DNA of 64,000 nucleotides from Phycisphaerales bacterium (GCA_029260315.1 JAJDDM010000146.1:1-64000); one strand, 5' to 3'. Positions 12,458 through 61,659 are shown, numbered from the stretch's first letter. Numbers and translations: made by a program. Notes: generated by a model not told the origin, from the sequence alone.

Positions 12458-12542
12458 GCGGGTGTGGCGGAACTGGTAGACGCGCGGGGTTTAGGTCCCC
12501 GTGGGCGATGAGCCCGTGCAGGTTCGAGTCCTGTCACCCGCA
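12458..12542 (+). tRNA. tRNA-Leu (anticodon UAG)
   Basis: Length 85 nt, with acceptor arms gcgggtg / cacccgc, an anticodon stem cgggg / ccccg and anticodon tag at 12492-12494. A long variable arm (tgggcgatgagccc) is as expected for a class II leucine tRNA. The T-arm contains ggttcgagtcc. The discriminator base is A at 12542 and the CCA is not encoded. It reads CUA and probably other CUN codons. Confidence 0.96.
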
Positions 12543-51799: not shown

Positions 51800-52399
51800 A
51801 TGGGCAGGACTTCTCGGGTTGTGGTCGGGATCAGCGGCGCGTCGGGGGCCGCGTATGCCCTGCGCCTGCTCGGGATGCTGCTGACCGGTGGGCACGAGGT
51901 GCACCTGGTCGTCAGCGAGTACGGCAAGCGGCTGCTGGCGGATGAGGCGGGGATCACGCGGATCGGGCGAGAGACGATGGCCGCGGGTGTCGAGGGCGGA
52001 TCGCTCGTCGTGCATCCGAACAAGGACGTGGGTGCGGTGATCGCCAGCGGGAGTTTTCTGCACGACGGGATGGTGGTGGTGCCGTGCTCGAGCACGAGTC
52101 TGGGGGCGATCGCGCATGGGTCGGGTTCGAACCTGCTCTGCCGGGCGGCGATGGTGACGCTGAAGGAGCGACGGAAGCTGGTGGTGTGCCATCGGGAGAC
52201 GCCGCTGAGCCTGATTGATATCGAGAACATGCGGCGGGTGGCGCTGGCGGGGGGGATCGTGTGCCCGACGAATCCGGGGTTTTATCTCGGGCCGCGGGGG
52301 GTGGAGGATCTGGTGGACTTTGTGGTGGGGAAGGTGCTGGATCTGTTGGAGATCGAGCATGGGTTGGAGACGCGGTGGAGGGGCCCGGGTAGCGAATAG
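51800..52399 (+). CDS. ubiX: Flavin prenyltransferase UbiX
   Basis: Attaches a dimethylallyl group to FMN to make prenylated FMN, the cofactor of UbiD decarboxylases. The 199 residues start with VVVGISGASGAAYALRLL, the FMN/phosphate-binding signature. PCSSTSLGAIAHG and RETPLSLIDIENM also match the family. No ubiD is in the window. The 3' half overlaps an antisense open frame (51954-52943). Confidence 0.93.
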   Translation: MGRTSRVVVGISGASGAAYALRLLGMLLTGGHEVHLVVSEYGKRLLADEAGITRIGRETMAAGVEGGSLVVHPNKDVGAVIASGSFLHDGMVVVPCSSTSLGAIAHGSGSNLLCRAAMVTLKERRKLVVCHRETPLSLIDIENMRRVALAGGIVCPTNPGFYLGPRGVEDLVDFVVGKVLDLLEIEHGLETRWRGPGSE

Positions 52400-52943
52400 G
52401 GCCGTGCGCGAGACCAGTCTGCGTGAAGTCAGTGTGCGCGAAGTCGGCGGTGTCCGTGTGGGGTCGCGGCGAGCTTGGGCGCGGTCGGCGTTTGACGCCG
52501 GGTGGGGGGAGGTCGCCGGTCAGGTGGAGCAGGACGGTTGCGGCTTTGCGTGATGTGTCGTTGATGCGCCAGGCGATGCGGGGATCGTCGTCCTCATCGG
52601 GCTCGCTTGCGGTGATGTTGATGAGGCGCGGGATCGCGGCGGCGCGGGCCTGGGCGGCGACGGCCTCGGCGCGGATGTCTGCGATGATTCTGATGTCCTG
52701 AAGGTCTTGGCGGGTTCTTTGGGACTGGGCCCACTCGCGGAGTTGCGGGAGGGTGAGGTCGTGGGCGCGCATGAGGGCGAGGATGCCGCGCTGGTTGCTG
52801 AGGAAGTCGGCGAGGATTGCGGCGTGGGCGTCGGGGGAGAGCGAGACAGCGAATGAGCGATTGAGCGAATTAGGGGAGGGTTTTTGGGACGGATCGTGGG
52901 GCGGGTCGTCCGGCGGGTGGGTTTGGGCGGTGGCGGGGCGCAT
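51954..52943 (-). CDS. Hypothetical protein; only the N-terminal half looks genuine
   Basis: Residues 1-150 (SPDAHAAILADFLSNQRGIL; MRAHDLTLPQLREWAQSQR; DTSRKAATVLLHLTGDLP) look like a real helical protein with a possible HTH. After about 52400 the frame is antisense to ubiX and turns into Pro/Ser/Arg-rich shadow sequence. The original stop was probably lost or the gene was truncated. The start ATG is at 52943. An octamer repeat near residues 25-35 (NSLNRS) also occurs in dnaE. Confidence 0.4.
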   Translation of the reverse strand: MRPATAQTHPPDDPPHDPSQKPSPNSLNRSFAVSLSPDAHAAILADFLSNQRGILALMRAHDLTLPQLREWAQSQRTRQDLQDIRIIADIRAEAVAAQARAAAIPRLINITASEPDEDDDPRIAWRINDTSRKAATVLLHLTGDLPPPGVKRRPRPSSPRPHTDTADFAHTDFTQTGLAHGPIRYPGPSTASPTHARSPTDPAPSPPQSPPDPPPPAARDKTPDSSGTRSPPPAPPAACSRYQSGSAASPDGTPPASVAPSASPSPPGRAGSNPTHARSPPDSCSSTAPPPSRRAENSRWRSPHPRPCSDARRAIRPRHPRPSSLARSA

Positions 52944-53051: not shown

Positions 53052-53166
53052 AAAAAAAAACGCCCAATGTTGGGCGTTCGAGGGTTGCCTACGGCATTGC
53101 CCTGCGCGGGGTCCTTATCGGACCACCACTTACCGTGATGAGCCGAAGAGGCCGCTCGATTACACT
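53052..53166 (-). ncRNA. Predicted tracrRNA of the type II-C CRISPR system
   Basis: About 115 nt, transcribed away from cas9. Its 5' end (53166 down to 53150) is 17 nt exactly complementary to the 3' end of the crRNA repeat. A short wobble/bulge region and cacgg (pairing the repeat's 5' end) complete the anti-repeat. A hairpin ggtcc-gataa-ggacc and a small tgcc-gta-ggca hairpin follow. It ends in a terminator, cgcccaa-ca-ttgggcg plus nine Ts. Confidence 0.9.
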
Positions 53167-53172
53167 GCGATG

Positions 53173-53201
53173 AACATAACACATCTTTGGTGGGAGTTCA
53201 A
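53173..53201 (-). promoter_or_regulatory. Putative tracrRNA promoter
   Basis: On the minus strand, ttgaac (53201-53196), a 17-bp spacer and tatgtt (53178-53173). A start about 7 nt downstream falls at the first base of the anti-repeat (53166). It overlaps the cas9 leader, so the two transcripts diverge from about 40 bp. Confidence 0.6.
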
Positions 53202-53204
53202 GTT

Positions 53205-56200
53205 ATGTCTGAGCAGTCGCCCTACATCCTCGGGCTGGACATCGGCGTTGCCTCGATCGGGTGGGCGCTGGTTGATCTTGATGTGAAGGGAAAGCCGTGC
53301 GGTGTTCGACGCGCCAGCGTGCATCTGTTCGAGGCAGGTGTTGATGGCGGGAAGGTCGATGCCGAGACGGCGATGACTCGGGGGAAGGAGCAATCGAAGG
53401 CGAAGCCGCGGCGGGATGCGCGGGCGATGCGGCGGCAGACGTGGCGGCGGGCGCGACGTAAGAAAAAGCTGCTGGGGACATTGATTCGTCACGGCTTGCT
53501 GCCTGAGGGCGACATTCGGACGCCGGCGGCGATCGACGCGTACCTCAAGGCTCTGGATGCGCGTTTGCGGGAGCGTTGGGAGGGGGAGGGGACGAGCCAC
53601 GTTGATCATCAGCGGCTGGCGTATCGCTTGCGCGCCGCGGCGGTCGTTCGGCGGGTGGAGGCCGATGAGTTTGGGCGGGCGCTGTACCACTTGGCGCAGC
53701 GAAGGGGATTCCTGAGCAATCGGAAGACGCCAGAGCGTGATGAGGACCAGTCGGAGATGAAGCAGGAGATCGGCGAGCTGGCGGAAAAGGTCGCGGCGCA
53801 TGATCCGCCGACGCTGGGTGCGTACCTGTGCTCGCTTGATCCGGATGAGGAGCGGCTGCGATGCCGGTGGACAAGCCGCGATATGTATCAGAACGAGTTT
53901 GATCGAGTGTGGGAGATCCAGGCGACGGCGCACGATCTAGACAGCGGCGCACAAGACGATATTCGAGAGGCGATCTTTCATCAGCGTCCGCTCAAGGACC
54001 AGCGGCATCTAATCGGGCGATGTTCGCTTGTGGATGGTGCGGTGCGGTGTCCGCTGTCGATGCGGGTCGCGCAGCGCTTTCGCGTGTTGCAGCAGGTGAA
54101 CCATCTCCGTGTCGTGCTGGATGACGGGACGGAACGCGGTCTCTCTCGTGATGAACGCGATGCGTTGCTGGAGGCGCTCTGGCGTCACGAGAAGCTGACG
54201 ATGACGCAGGCGAAGAAGGTTGCCGGTCTGCCGTCGAGGGGACCGGCGGCGGTGATGTTCAGCATTGAACGTGGCGGCGAGAAGAAACTCGTCGGACATC
54301 GGACTGACGGGAAGTTGCGCGCGATCTTCGGAGCGGAGCGCTGGGATGCGATGTCCGAGCAGAAGCGGGATGCGGCGGTCGAGGATGTTCGGTGTGTGCG
54401 GCTTCCGAGCACGTTGGAGCGGATCGGGCGGAAGCGCTGGGGGCTCGATGCGGAGAGCGCCAAGGAGTTCTCGGACGTCACGCTCGAGGAGGGGCACAGC
54501 GCGCACTCACGGCGGGCACTGGAGAGGCTCGTGCCGCGCATGGAGTTGGACGGGCTGAGCTACAGCGAGGCGCGGAAGGACGAGTTCCCGGAGTCGTTCA
54601 ACTCAGAAGAGGCGAGGGACTCGCTGCCGCCGCTGTCGGAGTGGGACAAGGATCTGCGGAATCCGTCAGTGACGCGGGCACTGACCGAGGTGCGGAAGGT
54701 CGTGAACGCGGTGGTGCGGCGATACGGGAAGCCGGAGCGGATCCATGTGGAGTTGGCGCGGGATCTCAAGAGCGGGCGATCGAAGCGGGAGAAGATCGCC
54801 AAGCGGATGCGGGAGCGGGAGTCTGAGCGGGAGCGCGCGGCGGCTTCGATCACCAGTGAGTTGGGCTACAAGGATCCGCGGCATTGGCAGATCGAGAAGT
54901 GGCTGCTTGCGGAGGAGTGCGGATGGCATTGCCCGTTCACGGGGCGCGGGTTCGGCGCGCATGAACTGCTGGGGCGCAACCCGCAGTTCGACGTTGAGCA
55001 CATCTGGCCGTACTCGAGGTCGCTGGACAACTCGTACATGAACAAGACGATCTGCTATCACGAGGAGAACCGGGCGCGCAAGCGCGGGCACTCGCCTGGG
55101 CGGGCGTACGGGGGGACGCCGGAGCAGTACGAGGCGATCCTGGAGCGCGTGCGGGCGTTCAAGGCAGACCGGTTCGTGGTCGCCGAGAAGCTGCGGCGGT
55201 TCACGGAAGAGATCGAGGAGGGGTTCACGAATCGACACTTGAGCGAGGCGCGATACATCGGGCGGCTCGCGTGCGATTACCTTGGGCTGCTGTATGGCGG
55301 GCGAGTGGAGAACATGGGGGCGGACGGCTCATCTCGCAAGATCATCACGCCTTCGGGCGGGCTGACGGCGTGGCTGCGGCGGGGATGGGGCATGGACTCG
55401 ATCCTGTCGGAGCGGGACGAGAAGGAGCGGCAAGATCATCGGCATCACGCGGTGGACGCGATCGTGATCGCGGTGGCGGATCAGCGGTCGATCCAGCGGC
55501 TTTCGGAGGCTGCGGGACGGATGGAGCGCGAGGGGCGGGAGCGGCCGTTCGATTCGGTGGATCCGCCGTGGGAGGGGTTTGTGGATGACGCTCGGGCGGC
55601 CATCGAGGCTGTGGTGGTGAGTCATCGGCAGTCGCGCAAGGTGCGAGGGAAGCTGCACGAGGACACGCTGTACTCGAAGGAGCATGGCGGGAAGCGGCGG
55701 GTGAGCAAGGAGTTGTGGAAGCTGTCCAAGAGCGAGGTGGAGAAGGGGAAGGTTGTGGATCGGCGCGCGCTCAAGGCGATCCGGGCGAAGTTGGAAGAGT
55801 TGGGAGAGCCGGACCCGGGCAAGGCGTTTCAGGATCGGGCGAATCTGCCGCTGGTGCGCGGGAACGGCGGGCGGATGGTGCCGCTGCGCCGGGTGCGTAT
55901 CGAGACGGGGGGGAGGTATCGGCGATTCGGGTCTGAGCCGCATGTGCGGTACGCGGCGCCTGAGTCGAATCATCACATGGCGTTTTACGACCGGCGGATT
56001 CCGGGCGGGGAGATCGAGCGGATTTGCGAGGTGGTGTCGCTGCCGGACGTGGCGGAGCGAGCGAAGGGCAACGGCAGCGCGGTCGTGGATCGTTCGTCGC
56101 GTGGTGAGCACGAGTTCGCGTTTTCGCTGTCGCCGGGTGAGTTCGTGAAGTTCGATGAGGCTGCGGGGCACGGGCTTTGCCGGGTGCTGAGCATCTCGGA

Positions 56201-56360
56201 CAATGACTTGGAGCTGATCCGGCACACCGATGGGAGGCCAGCGGGTGAGCGGCGGAAGGCGGGCGATCGCATCCGGCTGACGAAGGGCACCATCGCCAAG
56301 GCGAACTTCCGCAAGGTTCACGTCAACTACCTCGGCGAGGTGCATGATGCCGGGGGATGA
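53205..56360 (+). CDS. cas9: Cas9 endonuclease, type II-C
   Basis: A 1051-residue RNA-guided DNA nuclease, the compact size of II-C. RuvC-I has D12 (LGLDIGVASIGWAL), followed by an arginine-rich bridge helix (RRDARAMRRQTWRRARR, about 69-85). RuvC-II has E516 (RIHVELARDL), HNH has H599 and N622 (VEHIWPYSRSLDNSYMNK), and RuvC-III has H748/D751 (HHAVDAIVIA). The C-terminal PAM-interacting region contains NHHMAFYDRRIPGGE. The residue before the HNH His is Glu where Asp is common. ATG 53205 has a GGTGGGAG site upstream. Confidence 0.97.
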   Translation: MSEQSPYILGLDIGVASIGWALVDLDVKGKPCGVRRASVHLFEAGVDGGKVDAETAMTRGKEQSKAKPRRDARAMRRQTWRRARRKKKLLGTLIRHGLLPEGDIRTPAAIDAYLKALDARLRERWEGEGTSHVDHQRLAYRLRAAAVVRRVEADEFGRALYHLAQRRGFLSNRKTPERDEDQSEMKQEIGELAEKVAAHDPPTLGAYLCSLDPDEERLRCRWTSRDMYQNEFDRVWEIQATAHDLDSGAQDDIREAIFHQRPLKDQRHLIGRCSLVDGAVRCPLSMRVAQRFRVLQQVNHLRVVLDDGTERGLSRDERDALLEALWRHEKLTMTQAKKVAGLPSRGPAAVMFSIERGGEKKLVGHRTDGKLRAIFGAERWDAMSEQKRDAAVEDVRCVRLPSTLERIGRKRWGLDAESAKEFSDVTLEEGHSAHSRRALERLVPRMELDGLSYSEARKDEFPESFNSEEARDSLPPLSEWDKDLRNPSVTRALTEVRKVVNAVVRRYGKPERIHVELARDLKSGRSKREKIAKRMRERESERERAAASITSELGYKDPRHWQIEKWLLAEECGWHCPFTGRGFGAHELLGRNPQFDVEHIWPYSRSLDNSYMNKTICYHEENRARKRGHSPGRAYGGTPEQYEAILERVRAFKADRFVVAEKLRRFTEEIEEGFTNRHLSEARYIGRLACDYLGLLYGGRVENMGADGSSRKIITPSGGLTAWLRRGWGMDSILSERDEKERQDHRHHAVDAIVIAVADQRSIQRLSEAAGRMEREGRERPFDSVDPPWEGFVDDARAAIEAVVVSHRQSRKVRGKLHEDTLYSKEHGGKRRVSKELWKLSKSEVEKGKVVDRRALKAIRAKLEELGEPDPGKAFQDRANLPLVRGNGGRMVPLRRVRIETGGRYRRFGSEPHVRYAAPESNHHMAFYDRRIPGGEIERICEVVSLPDVAERAKGNGSAVVDRSSRGEHEFAFSLSPGEFVKFDEAAGHGLCRVLSISDNDLELIRHTDGRPAGERRKAGDRIRLTKGTIAKANFRKVHVNYLGEVHDAGG

Positions 56361-57264
56361 GCGAGTTCTGGATCTGTCGGGTTCCGCCGCGCGGGTGTCG
56401 CTGTCGCACGAGCGGCTGGTGATCCGGCGCGACGGCGAGGAGGACGCGCATGTGCCGCTGATGGAGGCGTCGCTGGCGGTGGTGTCGCACCCGCGGATCA
56501 CCTGCACGGTGGCGGCGCTTGCGGGGCTGATGCGCCACGGCGGGTCGCTGGTGGTGTGCGATGAGAGCCAGATGCCGGTGGGGCTGATGCTGCCGCTGGG
56601 GGTGAACAACGAGCAGACCAAACGGGTGCTGGCGCAGGCGGCGGCGAGCAGGCCGACGGGCAAGCGGCTGTGGAAGCAGATCGTGCGGGCGAAGGTGCTG
56701 GCGCAGGGGCACCTGCTGGAGATCCGGATGGGCGACGACGGGGGCCTGCGGCGGCTGGCCGATGAGGTGCGCTCGGGGGACCCATCGAATGTCGAGGGGC
56801 GGGCGGCGCAGCGGTACTGGCCGCTGGTGTTCGGGGATCCGATGTTCCGGCGGCGGCGTGAGGCGCAGGACCAGAACCGGATGCTGAACTACGGGTACGC
56901 GGTGCTGCGGGCGGCGGTCGGGCGGGCGATTTGCGCGGCGGGGCTGCACCCGTCGCTGGGGGTGCATCATCACGGGCGGAACAACCCGTGGGTGCTGGCG
57001 GATGACCTGATGGAACCGTACCGGGCGCTGGTGGATGACGAGGTCGCGGCGATCACGGGGGAACTCGGCGGAGACGTGGCGCTGGCGGGGGACGTGAAAG
57101 CCCGGCTCATCGGTGTGTTGCACGAGCGTTTGTCGAGCGATGGCGAGAGCCGAACGGTGCTGGACTGGATCGGGCGGACGGCGTCGAGCGTGGCGCAGGT
57201 GTTCGTGGGCGAACGCCGGCTGGCGTTGTATCCGGAGGGGCTTTGGCGCGAGGTCGGGGCGTGA
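56344..57264 (+). CDS. cas1: CRISPR integrase Cas1
   Basis: The spacer-integration subunit (with Cas2). The 306 residues have the metal ligands expected for type II Cas1: Glu in VEGRAAQRYWPL, His in LHPSLGVHHHGRNN and Asp in LADDLMEPYR. It overlaps the end of cas9 by 14-17 bp; two adjacent ATGs (56344, 56347) are possible starts. Length and sequence are normal for II-C. Confidence 0.95.
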   Translation: MMPGDERVLDLSGSAARVSLSHERLVIRRDGEEDAHVPLMEASLAVVSHPRITCTVAALAGLMRHGGSLVVCDESQMPVGLMLPLGVNNEQTKRVLAQAAASRPTGKRLWKQIVRAKVLAQGHLLEIRMGDDGGLRRLADEVRSGDPSNVEGRAAQRYWPLVFGDPMFRRRREAQDQNRMLNYGYAVLRAAVGRAICAAGLHPSLGVHHHGRNNPWVLADDLMEPYRALVDDEVAAITGELGGDVALAGDVKARLIGVLHERLSSDGESRTVLDWIGRTASSVAQVFVGERRLALYPEGLWREVGA

Positions 57265-57605
57265 GGGAGCGAGCGCCTGATCTGTCGGGGTATCGAGCGG
57301 TGTGGCTGTTTGCGATGTTCGATCTGCCGGTGGATACGACGACGGCGCGGCGGGAGTATGCGCGGTTTCGCAAGTGCCTGCTGGAACGGGGATTCAGTAT
57401 GATGCAGTTCAGCGTGTATGCGCGGCACTGCGCGAGCGAGGAGTCGGCGACGGTGATCCGGCGGGAGGTGCGGGGGCTGCTGCCGCCGCGGGGTCAGGTG
57501 CGATTGCTGGCGGTGACGGATCGTCAGTTCGGGAAGATGGAGGTGTTCTTTGGGCGGAAAAGGGAGAGCGTGGAGGAGCCGCCGCGACAGATCATGCTGT
57601 TTTGA
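57261..57605 (+). CDS. cas2: CRISPR-associated Cas2
   Basis: A 114-residue ferredoxin-fold partner of Cas1, with the beta-1 aspartate in WLFAMFDLPVDT and a type II-like tail (FGRKRESVEEPPRQIMLF). GTG 57261 overlaps the cas1 stop (GTGA) and is preferred over the start at 57243. It is the last cas gene; csn2 and cas4 are absent, which defines II-C. Confidence 0.95.
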   Translation: MRERAPDLSGYRAVWLFAMFDLPVDTTTARREYARFRKCLLERGFSMMQFSVYARHCASEESATVIRREVRGLLPPRGQVRLLAVTDRQFGKMEVFFGRKRESVEEPPRQIMLF

Positions 57606-57611
57606 CACGGG

Positions 57612-57652
57612 AAAAATGGCCGTAACTCCTTGCTATCGCAAGGAGTTACGGC
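57612..57652 (-). terminator. Terminator hairpin between cas2 and the CRISPR array
   Basis: A perfect 15-bp stem, gccgtaactccttgc / gcaaggagttacggc (57619-57652), with a 4-nt loop. On the minus strand it is followed by cattttt, so it is an intrinsic terminator for transcripts coming through the array from the right. On the plus strand no T-run follows. Confidence 0.8.
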
Positions 57653-57658
57653 AGGGGC

Positions 57659-58222
57659 AGTGTAATCGAGCGGCCCCTCCGGGCAAACCACGGCCTGCGG
57701 CTGTGGCGTGAGAACGAATGGAAGAGTGTAATCGAGCGGCCCCTCCGGGCAAACCACGGCCGTCCGGCGGGCCAAGGCGATGATGACGCGAGTGTAATCG
57801 AGCGGCCCCTCCGGGCAAACCACGGCGGTAATCAGACTATCCGCGTCCATTTATCCAGTGTAATCGAGCGGCCCCTCCGGGCAAACCACGGCCTGACATA
57901 TTCGCGCCCGTAATAGATGCGGAGTGTAATCGAGCGGCCCCTCCGGGCAAACCACGGCAGTCGGTCCGCCAACCCGATCGCGGAAGCAAGTGTAATCGAG
58001 CGGCCCCTCCGGGCAAACCACGGCGCAAGGACATCGAGCAATTCGCGCTACGCAAGTGTAATCGAGCGGCCCCTCCGGGCAAACCACGGCTTCAGATACC
58101 CGCCCGATGTGCGCCCGTTGAGTGTAATCGAGCGGCCCCTCCGGGCAAACCACGGCATACGGCGGGATGGCCTGCGAGTCCGCGTCAGTGTAATCGAGCG
58201 GCCCCTCCGGGCAAACCACGGC
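57659..58222 (-). CRISPR. CRISPR array, 9 repeats and 8 spacers
   Basis: Nine identical 36-bp repeats starting at 57659, 57725, 57791, 57857, 57923, 57989, 58055, 58121 and 58187, with eight spacers of exactly 30 bp (66-bp period). In crRNA sense (minus strand) the repeat begins gccgtggtttgcccgg and ends gctcgattacact. The strand is set by complementarity to the tracrRNA and by the terminator at 57612. Neither end repeat is degenerate. The adjoining 58223-58310 (leader side) is not AT-rich. Confidence 0.98.
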
Positions 58223-58439: not shown

Positions 58440-60710
58440 TCAGTCGAGCAGGTCGAGGAGGATGAAGAAGTCCTCGGCGTCGATGAAGCCGTCGCCGTTG
58501 AGGTCGCCGGCGGCGAGGCGGTCGCAGGGGGGGTCGGGGGGGTCGATGGGGTTGACCGGGGCGTTGAGGCGGAGGATCTGGAAGAGGTCGGCGCGGGTGA
58601 GGACGCCGTCGCAGTTGAGGTCGCCGGGGATGGCGATGGGGATGCGCCACATGCCGCGGCCCTGGGTGCTGACGACGATGCGCTGGCGGTCGGCGTCGAG
58701 TTCGAGGTCGATGACCGGGACGTGGGGGAGGTTCTGGCTGTAGCGGTGCCAGTTGACGCCGCCGTTGACCGAGCGGTAGAGGCCGTCGTCCGCGCCGGTG
58801 TAGAGGGTTGGGATGTTGCCGTTGCCGCCGCGGATATCGACCGAGAGGACGTTGACGGGGGTGTCGGGGAGGTCGCCGTCGAAGGGTTCGAAGGATTGGC
58901 CGGCGTTGGTGGTGCGCAGCATTTGGTCGGTGTTGAAGCCGGCGACGGCGAGGTACATGGTGTTGGGGTCGGTGGGGTGGATCTCGATCTCGCGGGTGAC
59001 GCGGGGCCAGCCGGGGTTGTTATCTTGGATGAGGGTGAAGGTGCTGGCGGCGTCGGTGGAGATGAGGACGTTGCCGTCGTTGGTGGCGGCGTAGACGACG
59101 TTGGGGTTCGAGGGTGCGATGGCGAGTGCGCGGATGGCGCCGTTGCCGTCGGTAAGGTCGGGGCTGAGGACGGACCAGTTGGAGCCGCCGTCGGTGGATT
59201 CGTGGACGCGGTGGGTGGCGTAGAGCATGCGGTCGGCATTGGCGGGGTCGAGGACGTAGGGGGGGAGGAAGCAGTTGCGTCCGGAGATGTCGGCGCCGAT
59301 GTAGTTGAAGGAGTCGCCGCCGTTGGTGGAGCGGTAGAGGTTGGCGGTGCCCTGTGACTCGACGAAGACGCGGCTTGGGCGCGTGTTGTCGAGGCGAGTC
59401 CATCCGCCGTCGCCTCCTCGGATGGTGTCCCAGAGCGCCGTGTCGGTTTCGCGGCGGTTGGTGCCGTTGTCCTGTGCGCCGGCGGCGAACCACTGGTCGT
59501 TTGTAGGGTGTGTGCTGAGGCCGGCGTAGAACTGGATGGTGGTGAGGCTGGTGTTGAGCGATTGCCAGGAGTTGCCGAGGTTTTCGCTGCGGTGGACGCC
59601 GCCGTCGGAGCCGATGAGCAGGCGTCCGTCTGCGTCGAATGCGATGGCGTGCATATCGACGTGGGGCGGGGTGATGTTGCTCCAGGAGGCGCCGTTGTTG
59701 GTTGTGCGCATGAGCGTGAAGCCGCCGGCGATGGCGGCGTCGGGGTTGGCGGGCTGGAAGGCGATGGTGGAGAGGTACCAGCCGTAGGTTGCCTGATTGA
59801 CGGCGCCGACCCATGTCCATGACGCGCCGGCGTTGTTGCTGCGGTAGATGCCCAGGTTGCTCGCGCCGCCGCCGGTGGAGCTGGAGGGATTGGTGAGGAT
59901 GGCCATGAGGCGGCTGGAGTCGTCGGGAGAGACGGCGACGCTGATGCGGCCGATGTTGGAGGGGAGGTTGTTGGTGAGCTTGGTCCAGGTTGCGCCGGCG
60001 TCGGTGGTCTTGTAGATGCCGTTGTCGGGGTGGCCGAAGATGCGGCCGATGGCGGCGTAGAGGATGCTCGTGTCGTTGTGGTCGATGGCGATGTCGGTGG
60101 CCGAGAGGTTGGGGAGGTTTTCGAGGCGTTGCCAGGAGACGCCTGCGTCGGTGGACTTGAAGACACCGAGGGGGCCGGTGGCCTGGGGGTGGTTCTTGGC
60201 GGCGGCGAGTTCGGGGAAGCCGCCGGCGCGGGTGATGGATGCGTAGAGGGTGCTCGTGTTCGCGGGGTCGATGACGATCTTGGAAAAGCAGCGCCCGGCG
60301 AAGGTGTCGTGGGCGAGGTGGGTCCAGGTGTCGCCGGCGTCTGTGGACTTGAAGAGGCCCAGGCCGTAGCGGCTGTGGTTGGCGTAGTTGGCCTCGCCGG
60401 TGCCGGCGTAGAGGGTGTCGGGGTTGGCGGGGTCGATGGCGAGCGCGCCGATGGCGGTGGTGGGCATGTGGTCGGTGAGGGGCTGCCAGGAGTCGCCGGC
60501 GTTGGTCGTGCGCCAGACGCCGGCGTCGGCACCCGCGGCGTAGTAGAGATCGGGGTCGGTGGGGTGTGCGGCGAGTGCGCTGATGCGTCCGGCGGAGCCG
60601 CCGAAGAACGAGACGGGAGCGGGGCCGAGGGATTCGGCGGTCTGGGCGGGGGCGGGTGTGCTGAGAGGGCAGGCGCAGATAATCGCGGAGAGAATGGCTG
60701 GCGTTCTCAT
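58440..60710 (-). CDS. Secreted sortilin/BNR-type beta-propeller protein with dockerin-like tail
   Basis: A 756-residue exported protein. After a signal peptide (ending TPAPAQ), at least ten BNR/VPS10-type repeats (T-N/D-A/G-G-x-S/T-W, for example STDAGDTW) form one or two beta-propellers. The C-terminal 65 residues hold two calcium-loop repeats (GDLNCDGVLTRADLFQIL and GDLNGDGFIDAEDFFILL), as in dockerin-like anchors of planctomycetes. Its start overlaps the stop of the upstream gene (ATGA). The ligand is unknown. Confidence 0.88.
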   Translation of the reverse strand: MRTPAILSAIICACPLSTPAPAQTAESLGPAPVSFFGGSAGRISALAAHPTDPDLYYAAGADAGVWRTTNAGDSWQPLTDHMPTTAIGALAIDPANPDTLYAGTGEANYANHSRYGLGLFKSTDAGDTWTHLAHDTFAGRCFSKIVIDPANTSTLYASITRAGGFPELAAAKNHPQATGPLGVFKSTDAGVSWQRLENLPNLSATDIAIDHNDTSILYAAIGRIFGHPDNGIYKTTDAGATWTKLTNNLPSNIGRISVAVSPDDSSRLMAILTNPSSSTGGGASNLGIYRSNNAGASWTWVGAVNQATYGWYLSTIAFQPANPDAAIAGGFTLMRTTNNGASWSNITPPHVDMHAIAFDADGRLLIGSDGGVHRSENLGNSWQSLNTSLTTIQFYAGLSTHPTNDQWFAAGAQDNGTNRRETDTALWDTIRGGDGGWTRLDNTRPSRVFVESQGTANLYRSTNGGDSFNYIGADISGRNCFLPPYVLDPANADRMLYATHRVHESTDGGSNWSVLSPDLTDGNGAIRALAIAPSNPNVVYAATNDGNVLISTDAASTFTLIQDNNPGWPRVTREIEIHPTDPNTMYLAVAGFNTDQMLRTTNAGQSFEPFDGDLPDTPVNVLSVDIRGGNGNIPTLYTGADDGLYRSVNGGVNWHRYSQNLPHVPVIDLELDADRQRIVVSTQGRGMWRIPIAIPGDLNCDGVLTRADLFQILRLNAPVNPIDPPDPPCDRLAAGDLNGDGFIDAEDFFILLDLLD

Positions 60711-61525
60711 CGCTGGTCCTCCGTGACGGTGAAGGTGAGGACGCCGGTGACGAGGTCGATGTCGGCGGGCGCGGCGATTGGCGATGCGCTGTTTGGTTTG
60801 GGGCTGATTGGTGGGTCCGGATCGTTCGGCGCGGCGGGTGTGGCGCGGTGGAACTCGATTCGATAGTCGCCGGGGCGGTCGATGCGGAGGTCTGCGAAGC
60901 CGCCGGCTCGGGTTGTGAGGATGGTCGTGGTGTTGGAGTCGAGGTGTGTGGCGATGACGCGCTGGCCGGTGACGCTGACGCCGGCGATATAGATGCGCAA
61001 GGGCATGTCGCCCGTGAAGCCGGGGCGGGTGGGGTCCATGAGCGGGCGGATCTCGGCGTGGACGGCGAGCTTGCTGGTGGCGATGGGGGAGGATCCAGAC
61101 GAGTCCTTGGGCGGGCGCACGAACGTGACGAGGGACTCGCGTCGGCGGACGCGGATAGCGTCGGCGACGGGGGGGACATCGCCGGACGCTCGTGCTGAGA
61201 ACTCGCCCCACTGCTCGGCGGGGACCGACTCGATGCGAGGGTCGAGCTCGACGCCGACGACGGATGCGCCGTGCGGGGTGAGATCGACCACGACGCCGGC
61301 GTTCTGGTCGGGCTGCGGGTGGTGGCGGTTTTCCTGGCGGTCTGCTGTGCGCCAGAACATCCAGGCGATGCGCTCTTGGGGCCAGACCGCCTCGCGCCCG
61401 TTCTCGTGCATCGTCACGAGTACCCCGGGAGATCCCTGGGGCGGCGACGTGGCGTGCAGGGTTCGGAGTGTTTGTGCGTTGGCGGGAAGTGTGAGGACGC
61501 TCACCAAGGCGATCAGGCGTGTCAT
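60707..61525 (-). CDS. Secreted beta-sandwich-like protein, unknown function
   Basis: A 272-residue protein with a signal peptide (MTRLIALVSVLTLPANAQ). The C-terminal half (MPLRIYIAGVSVTGQRVIAT; GGFADLRIDRPGDYRIEF) resembles Ig-like or DUF4198-type carbohydrate/metal-related beta domains, by pattern only. It is translationally coupled to the propeller gene by a 4-bp overlap, so the two probably act together outside the cell. Confidence 0.72.
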   Translation of the reverse strand: MTRLIALVSVLTLPANAQTLRTLHATSPPQGSPGVLVTMHENGREAVWPQERIAWMFWRTADRQENRHHPQPDQNAGVVVDLTPHGASVVGVELDPRIESVPAEQWGEFSARASGDVPPVADAIRVRRRESLVTFVRPPKDSSGSSPIATSKLAVHAEIRPLMDPTRPGFTGDMPLRIYIAGVSVTGQRVIATHLDSNTTTILTTRAGGFADLRIDRPGDYRIEFHRATPAAPNDPDPPISPKPNSASPIAAPADIDLVTGVLTFTVTEDQR

Positions 61526-61659
61526 GCTTGCAGACTACCCGGCGCGGTGCTCGCGGACAACGGTCCGCGCGGATCTGCATCAACCGACCATCGGCGTGTT
61601 GATCGCCGCTGAGATTGGGCGGCAGGGCCTATCGGGCTTGGAACGGGGCTTGAGGTAGG

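Follow-up and report, generated by a model that had tools for sequence, protein, structure and literature searches.

A type II-C CRISPR-Cas9 locus of a Phycisphaerales planctomycete and CreTA-like candidates in its sister lineage

Does the stretch at positions 53052-58222 of the window, the 64,000 nucleotides of planctomycete DNA analyzed here, hold an intact CRISPR-Cas9 immune system, and if so, how are its RNAs read and what might its Cas9 recognize? An initial annotation had described a complete, compact type II-C locus with a tracrRNA. Its coordinates proved accurate and all of the parts that it listed were found again. They are given below with the two flanking genes, which are unrelated to CRISPR.

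51800-52399, plus strand: UbiX-like flavin prenyltransferase/flavoprotein, flanking gene
53052-53166, minus strand: predicted tracrRNA gene of about 115 nt, with antirepeat, two hairpins and Rho-independent terminator, located by aligning the antirepeat to the array repeat
53058-53079, minus strand: tracrRNA terminator stem-loop (terminator scan; 9 pairs, loop of 4), followed by a T-run to 53052
53132-53166, minus strand: tracrRNA antirepeat, pairing with almost the entire crRNA repeat
53173-53201, minus strand: candidate tracrRNA promoter TTGAAC-17-TATGTT, read from the sequence, with a predicted RNA start at 53166
53205-56360, plus strand: cas9, 1051 aa, ATG start and TGA stop (TIGR01865; Pfam RuvC_III, HNH_4, Cas9_a)
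56347-57264, plus strand: cas1, 305 aa, type II (NMENI) class (TIGR03639; PF01867)
57261-57605, plus strand: cas2, 114 aa, GTG start overlapping the cas1 stop (TIGR01573; PF09827)
57619-57652, minus strand: perfect 15-bp hairpin followed by CATTTTT, the probable array terminator at the cas2 side (terminator scan, inverted repeat)
57659-58222, minus strand: CRISPR array of 9 identical 36-nt repeats and 8 spacers of 30 nt; crRNA-sense repeat GCCGTGGTTTGCCCGGAGGGGCCGCTCGATTACACT
58440-61583, minus strand: Sortilin/Vps10 and BNR-repeat protein, flanking gene

Identity and relatives of the locus

The three cas genes form a plus-strand operon in which cas9 overlaps cas1 by 14 nt and cas1 overlaps cas2 by 4 nt. 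Their products exceed the family cut-offs, with 581 bits for Cas9 against TIGR01865 (cut-off 100), 234 bits for Cas1 against TIGR03639 cas1_NMENI (cut-off 120), and 64.7 bits for Cas2 against TIGR01573 (cut-off 24.5). A Cas9 with RuvC and HNH catalytic residues, a tracrRNA antirepeat, and adjacent cas1, cas2 and array place the locus in type II. Only cas9, cas1 and cas2 lie between the tracrRNA and the array; the lack of csn2 (II-A) and cas4 (II-B) at the locus and the NMENI-type Cas1 place it in subtype II-C. The subtype and completeness first claimed are borne out by this gene set, the class of Cas1 and an antirepeat that coevolves with the repeat (see below), and the parts are intact as described, with all three reading frames open and the nine repeats identical. 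Judged by its sequence, this is an ordinary, well-preserved type II-C CRISPR-Cas9 system of an uncultured Phycisphaerales planctomycete. We are highly confident that an intact adaptive immune locus is the best explanation; gene integrity, homology, strand logic, coevolution of repeat and tracrRNA, and conservation of the layout support it directly, and cleavage, adaptation, processing and defence would be as expected for the family.

The assembly to which the window belongs (4.18 Mb in 195 contigs) is a MAG with three CRISPR systems, II-C, I-C and I-E. The type I-C locus (G000:C29; L070 1218-9056) has cas1, cas7c, cas8c, cas5c and cas3, and cas4 may be present there. The type I-E locus (G000:C122; L071 8444-16951) has cas1e, cas6e, cas7e, cas11e, cas8e and cas3e. 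The only tRNA gene in the window is a tRNA-Leu (TAG) at 12458-12542 on the plus strand.

Loci of this type are common in the order, since a Cas9-like match was found in 56 of the 301 genomes surveyed. About 28 relatives keep the order tracrRNA-cas9-cas1-cas2-array, and in nearly all of them the first repeat begins approximately 52-53 nt after cas2. The repeats fall into two groups: A, which includes the window and ends in ...CCACGGC or ...CCACAGC on the plus strand, and B, which ends in ...CAATCCGCAAC. Two genomes carry two II-C systems each, one of group A and one of group B (G146, with L046 and L065; G006, with L057 and L115). In a tree of 55 Cas9 sequences, built without named reference Cas9s, group A including the window forms one clade of 21 sequences (support 100), and the sister of the window Cas9 is L011 from the same genus. 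Of the named relatives, a Phycisphaerales MAG is nearest; its Cas9 is 67% identical to that of the window, which agrees with the planctomycete origin first proposed. The papers searched held no published characterization of this Cas9 branch. Uncharacterized Phycisphaerales II-C loci (L009, which is WGEO01000138.1 of MAG S146_42; L044; L058) share with the window the order of parts, the tracrRNA plan, a Glu at Cas9 position 598, and the repeat form AGTGTA...CCACGGC on the plus strand. However, the Cas9s of this group are approximately 38-68% identical to that of the window, and the repeats differ, with compensating changes in the antirepeats.

tracrRNA, array and direction of transcription

On the minus strand the predicted tracrRNA runs from the antirepeat through a small hairpin and a composite hairpin to the terminator, with a gap of only 38 nt between the tracrRNA and cas9. 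The candidate promoter matches 8 of 12 consensus bases, which is under the scan threshold and thus weak. A cofold of repeat and antirepeat gave -99.6 kcal/mol, with a 24-bp upper helix and an 8-bp helix adjoining the spacer. The pairing consists of a long contiguous helix with the 3' part of the crRNA repeat, plus GCCGTGGT at the repeat 5' end, and all of the first 22 antirepeat positions are paired (22/22). An Rfam scan of the window gave no tracrRNA match above the gathering threshold. The same element lies upstream of cas9 in the relatives, where its tail hairpins covary. One relative (L060) has two tandem tracrRNA-like genes (251-286 and 385-420) upstream of a single cas9.

Changes in repeat and antirepeat go together across 22 genomes. 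Within group A, an average of 21.4 of the first 22 antirepeat positions pair with the repeat of the same genome, against 18.3 with the repeats of other genomes, and none of 20,000 permutations equalled the true assignment; kinship of the genomes inflates these counts, though the effect is large all the same. Compensating changes are found at several positions (7-9 and 15-20).

The array has a period of exactly 66 nt. Its repeat was found nowhere else in the assembly, where the few other pattern matches were comparable to those of the reversed-pattern control. The gap between cas2 and the array is 53 nt and contains the 15-bp hairpin; strong hairpins occupy this gap in about ten relatives, though not in all. 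Of 40 related arrays, 39 have repeats that end in a -10-like element (TACACT or TACAAT), even though neighbouring positions vary, while the -35 part of the proposed promoter is not conserved. II-C systems are reported to carry promoters in their repeats and to acquire spacers at the 3' end (PMC12638026; PMC8092290), and crRNAs of the window are likewise probably transcribed from repeat-embedded promoters. In several relatives the repeats at the cas2-distal end are mutated or decayed and those at the cas2 side are intact, which fits spacer acquisition next to cas2; new spacers of the window would then also enter there. An array this short, with no differences among its repeats, would suit a locus that is active or one that was recently reduced. 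Some related arrays hold near-duplicate spacers with 1-5 mismatches (28/47 and 34/39 in L046, 2/16 in L065, 19/20 in L073), as if diverging phages had each supplied the same protospacer.

The direction of transcription follows from the antirepeat and two minus-strand terminators. The antirepeat could pair with a crRNA of either strand, but a terminator stands behind it only on the minus strand, which argues for the minus-strand reading, and the array, read on this strand towards cas2, meets a terminator at 57652-57619. In the opposite arrangement the tracrRNA would lie on the plus strand and the array would be transcribed in the same sense as the cas genes, which is how many other CRISPR types are most commonly laid out. 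Here it is extremely improbable, as antirepeat, nexus-like hairpins and U-run terminator come in the correct order only on the minus strand, and a plus-strand RNA would reach cas9 within 40 nt and meet no terminator before it.

On the minus-strand reading, Cas1 and Cas2 would add new 30-bp spacers at the repeat nearest cas2. Transcription of crRNA would run towards cas2, probably starting from the TACACT element that ends every repeat, and would end at the hairpin next to cas2. The divergently transcribed tracrRNA would pair with nearly the whole repeat, and the duplex would load Cas9, which would then cut matching DNA beside a 3' PAM using its RuvC and HNH domains.

Cas9 active site, targets and alternative readings

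A sequence search of the PDB gave Nme1Cas9-type chains (6kc8 and similar) as the best relatives of the window Cas9 (210 bits, E 6e-61), making Nme1Cas9 from the Neisseria meningitidis II-C system the best solved relative by sequence. The two systems share the three cas genes, a similar size and repeats of 36 nt. They differ in that identity is low, the repeat, tracrRNA sequence and C-terminal domain are others, and the window has Glu in place of the Asp before the HNH His. From the literature, the N. meningitidis system also has a promoter-like element at the repeat end and an acquisition end opposite the transcription start, as is proposed for the window. The phmmer alignment to these chains ends near residue 766 and leaves out the PAM-interacting C-terminus, which therefore cannot be compared or used to carry over a PAM specificity. 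The NCBIfam Cas9d model (NF049971) shares the HNH/RuvC core at 123 bits, but membership was rejected since the score is far under the 375-bit cut-off. An AlphaFold2 model made from a two-sequence alignment had a pLDDT of 35.6 and was unusable.

The PAM was said to be unreadable from the window and remains so after spacer searches of IMG/VR, a phage collection and 400 related genomes, none of which gave a credible protospacer. IMG/VR scans with seeds of six of the eight window spacers (1, 3, 4, 5, 6 and 7) yielded a single match, in which 20 exact PAM-proximal nucleotides of spacer 6 lie in an ORF of phage structural type (IMGVR_UViG_3300024262_000125). We rejected it as a protospacer because only two of the remaining ten nucleotides match and, by a rough estimate, about 0.1 such matches are expected per scan. 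Two recurrent L046 spacers had no match in IMG/VR scans. A search of the phage collection with about 65 pooled spacers produced nothing but low-complexity-like matches, all of them to one L044 spacer. About 37 pooled spacers searched against 400 genomes of the order, with few candidates scored per genome, matched nothing beyond the CRISPR arrays and a single conserved host gene, which we read as a HAD-type hydrolase. Upstream of cas9 (52907-52917, minus strand), 11 nt match the seed of window spacer 2, with no PAM in common with relatives. Self-regulation was rejected here, as the match is probably due to chance: 11-nt matches arise in approximately 0.03-0.04% of control tests, and hundreds of spacers were tested.

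Of the usual six catalytic residues claimed for this Cas9 (RuvC D12, E516, H748 and D751; HNH H599 and N622), none is missing and none varies among 28 aligned sequences. The metal-ligand Asp of HNH that just precedes the catalytic His is, however, conservatively replaced by Glu598. This position presumably corresponds to D839 in SpyCas9 and D587 in Nme1Cas9. All 20 group A Cas9s of the alignment (19 relatives and the window) have Glu here, and the group B ones and the aligned PDB Cas9 sequences have Asp; the comparison covers these sets, and Glu may occur in other Cas9s too. A substitution at a metal ligand, fixed in the clade, raises the question of whether these enzymes are functionally altered, for example nickase-like. 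We consider this very unlikely, as His599, Asn622 and the four RuvC residues do not vary, Glu is a common metal ligand, and conservation across the clade argues for a working active site.

It is likewise very unlikely that the locus is a relic with all its parts in place that has ceased to adapt or is hardly expressed beside the type I systems of its genome. The presence of the type I-C and I-E systems, the array of only 8 spacers and the lack of a credible match for any spacer in the virus collections searched would suit such a relic. However, the missing protospacers are to be expected for an uncultured planctomycete, and open frames, retained catalytic residues, nine identical repeats and an antirepeat fully complementary over 22 nt all speak for an intact immune locus. 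With the intact locus as the preferred reading, the window contributes a complete compact Cas9 system of 1051 aa with a defined repeat and tracrRNA, and its Cas9 offers a PAM yet to be explored and an Asp-to-Glu change in HNH that occurs naturally.

Candidate tRNA toxins in group B loci

A more surprising lead than the window locus itself came from the sister lineage. Four group B loci (L066, L068, L107 and L109) carry a lone degenerate repeat, in the orientation of the array, between the tracrRNA and cas9, in a gap of 349-635 nt versus the usual 46-151 nt. The 3' end of the guide that this repeat would yield recurs at or beside a promoter in the same gap, over 12 nt in L066, 12 nt in L068, 11 nt in L109 and 9 nt in L107. 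Compared with shuffled guides, these matches have P values of 1e-4 (L066), 7e-5 (L068), 2e-4 (L109) and 5e-3 (L107), estimated with the lone repeat masked because it matches array-derived control guides. Behind the matched promoter there is a tRNA gene or a tRNA-shaped RNA in all four loci.

L066, G033:C1, 800994-801081, minus strand: tRNA with a Leu-like body and long variable arm, anticodon CCA (Trp); across the four genomes it matches a tRNA-Leu(CAA) best
L107, G166:C146:252-339: tRNA with a D-arm that we read as Leu-like, anticodon TGA (Ser)
L068, G052:C1, 67584-67656, plus strand: tRNA nearest to tRNA-Ala in all four genomes, acceptor G3:U70, anticodon CCT (Arg)
L109, G038:C528:632-702: tRNA-shaped RNA with a cloverleaf fold and G3:U70, anticodon uncertain (UAA by our reading); no ARAGORN call and no Rfam match at gathering

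Since the LeuRS and AlaRS of bacteria ignore the anticodon, tRNAs of this kind should misplace amino acids at Trp, Ser or Arg codons, and we infer that the four candidates would be toxic through mistranslation. The loci look like a Cas9 version of CreTA, in which an RNA toxin would be repressed by Cas9 and a crRNA-like antitoxin. The in-frame stop in the L068 cas9 fits badly with such addiction, or is an assembly error. The CreTA modules of type I systems (PMC8501985, PMC9458426) are analogous to these pairs of tRNA and lone repeat, and the scaRNA-guided repression by Cas9 described in PMC9458426 is analogous to the proposed control of the tRNA genes. The papers found on CreTA and Cas9, subscription literature not being covered, do not describe a Cas9-tRNA form. 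The sister loci suggest that RNA toxin-antitoxin pairs whose toxins resemble tRNAs can tie a type II-C Cas9 to its host.

In the window genome, no lone repeat was found within 13 kb of the locus and none stands out elsewhere. There is a slim chance that Cas9s of the window lineage serve both as immune nucleases and as RNA-guided repressors of chimeric, mistranslating tRNA genes, a role hinted at by the sister lineage, in which case the module of this organism would be unassembled or too degenerate to detect.

The group B matches also provide a PAM hypothesis that needs no phage match. The bases 3' of the four guide matches are AGGGTAAA, GGGATATC, GGGATTTT and TAGATTAT, which have N-R-G-R-T in common. 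These four matches suggest a PAM near NRGRT for the group B II-C Cas9s.
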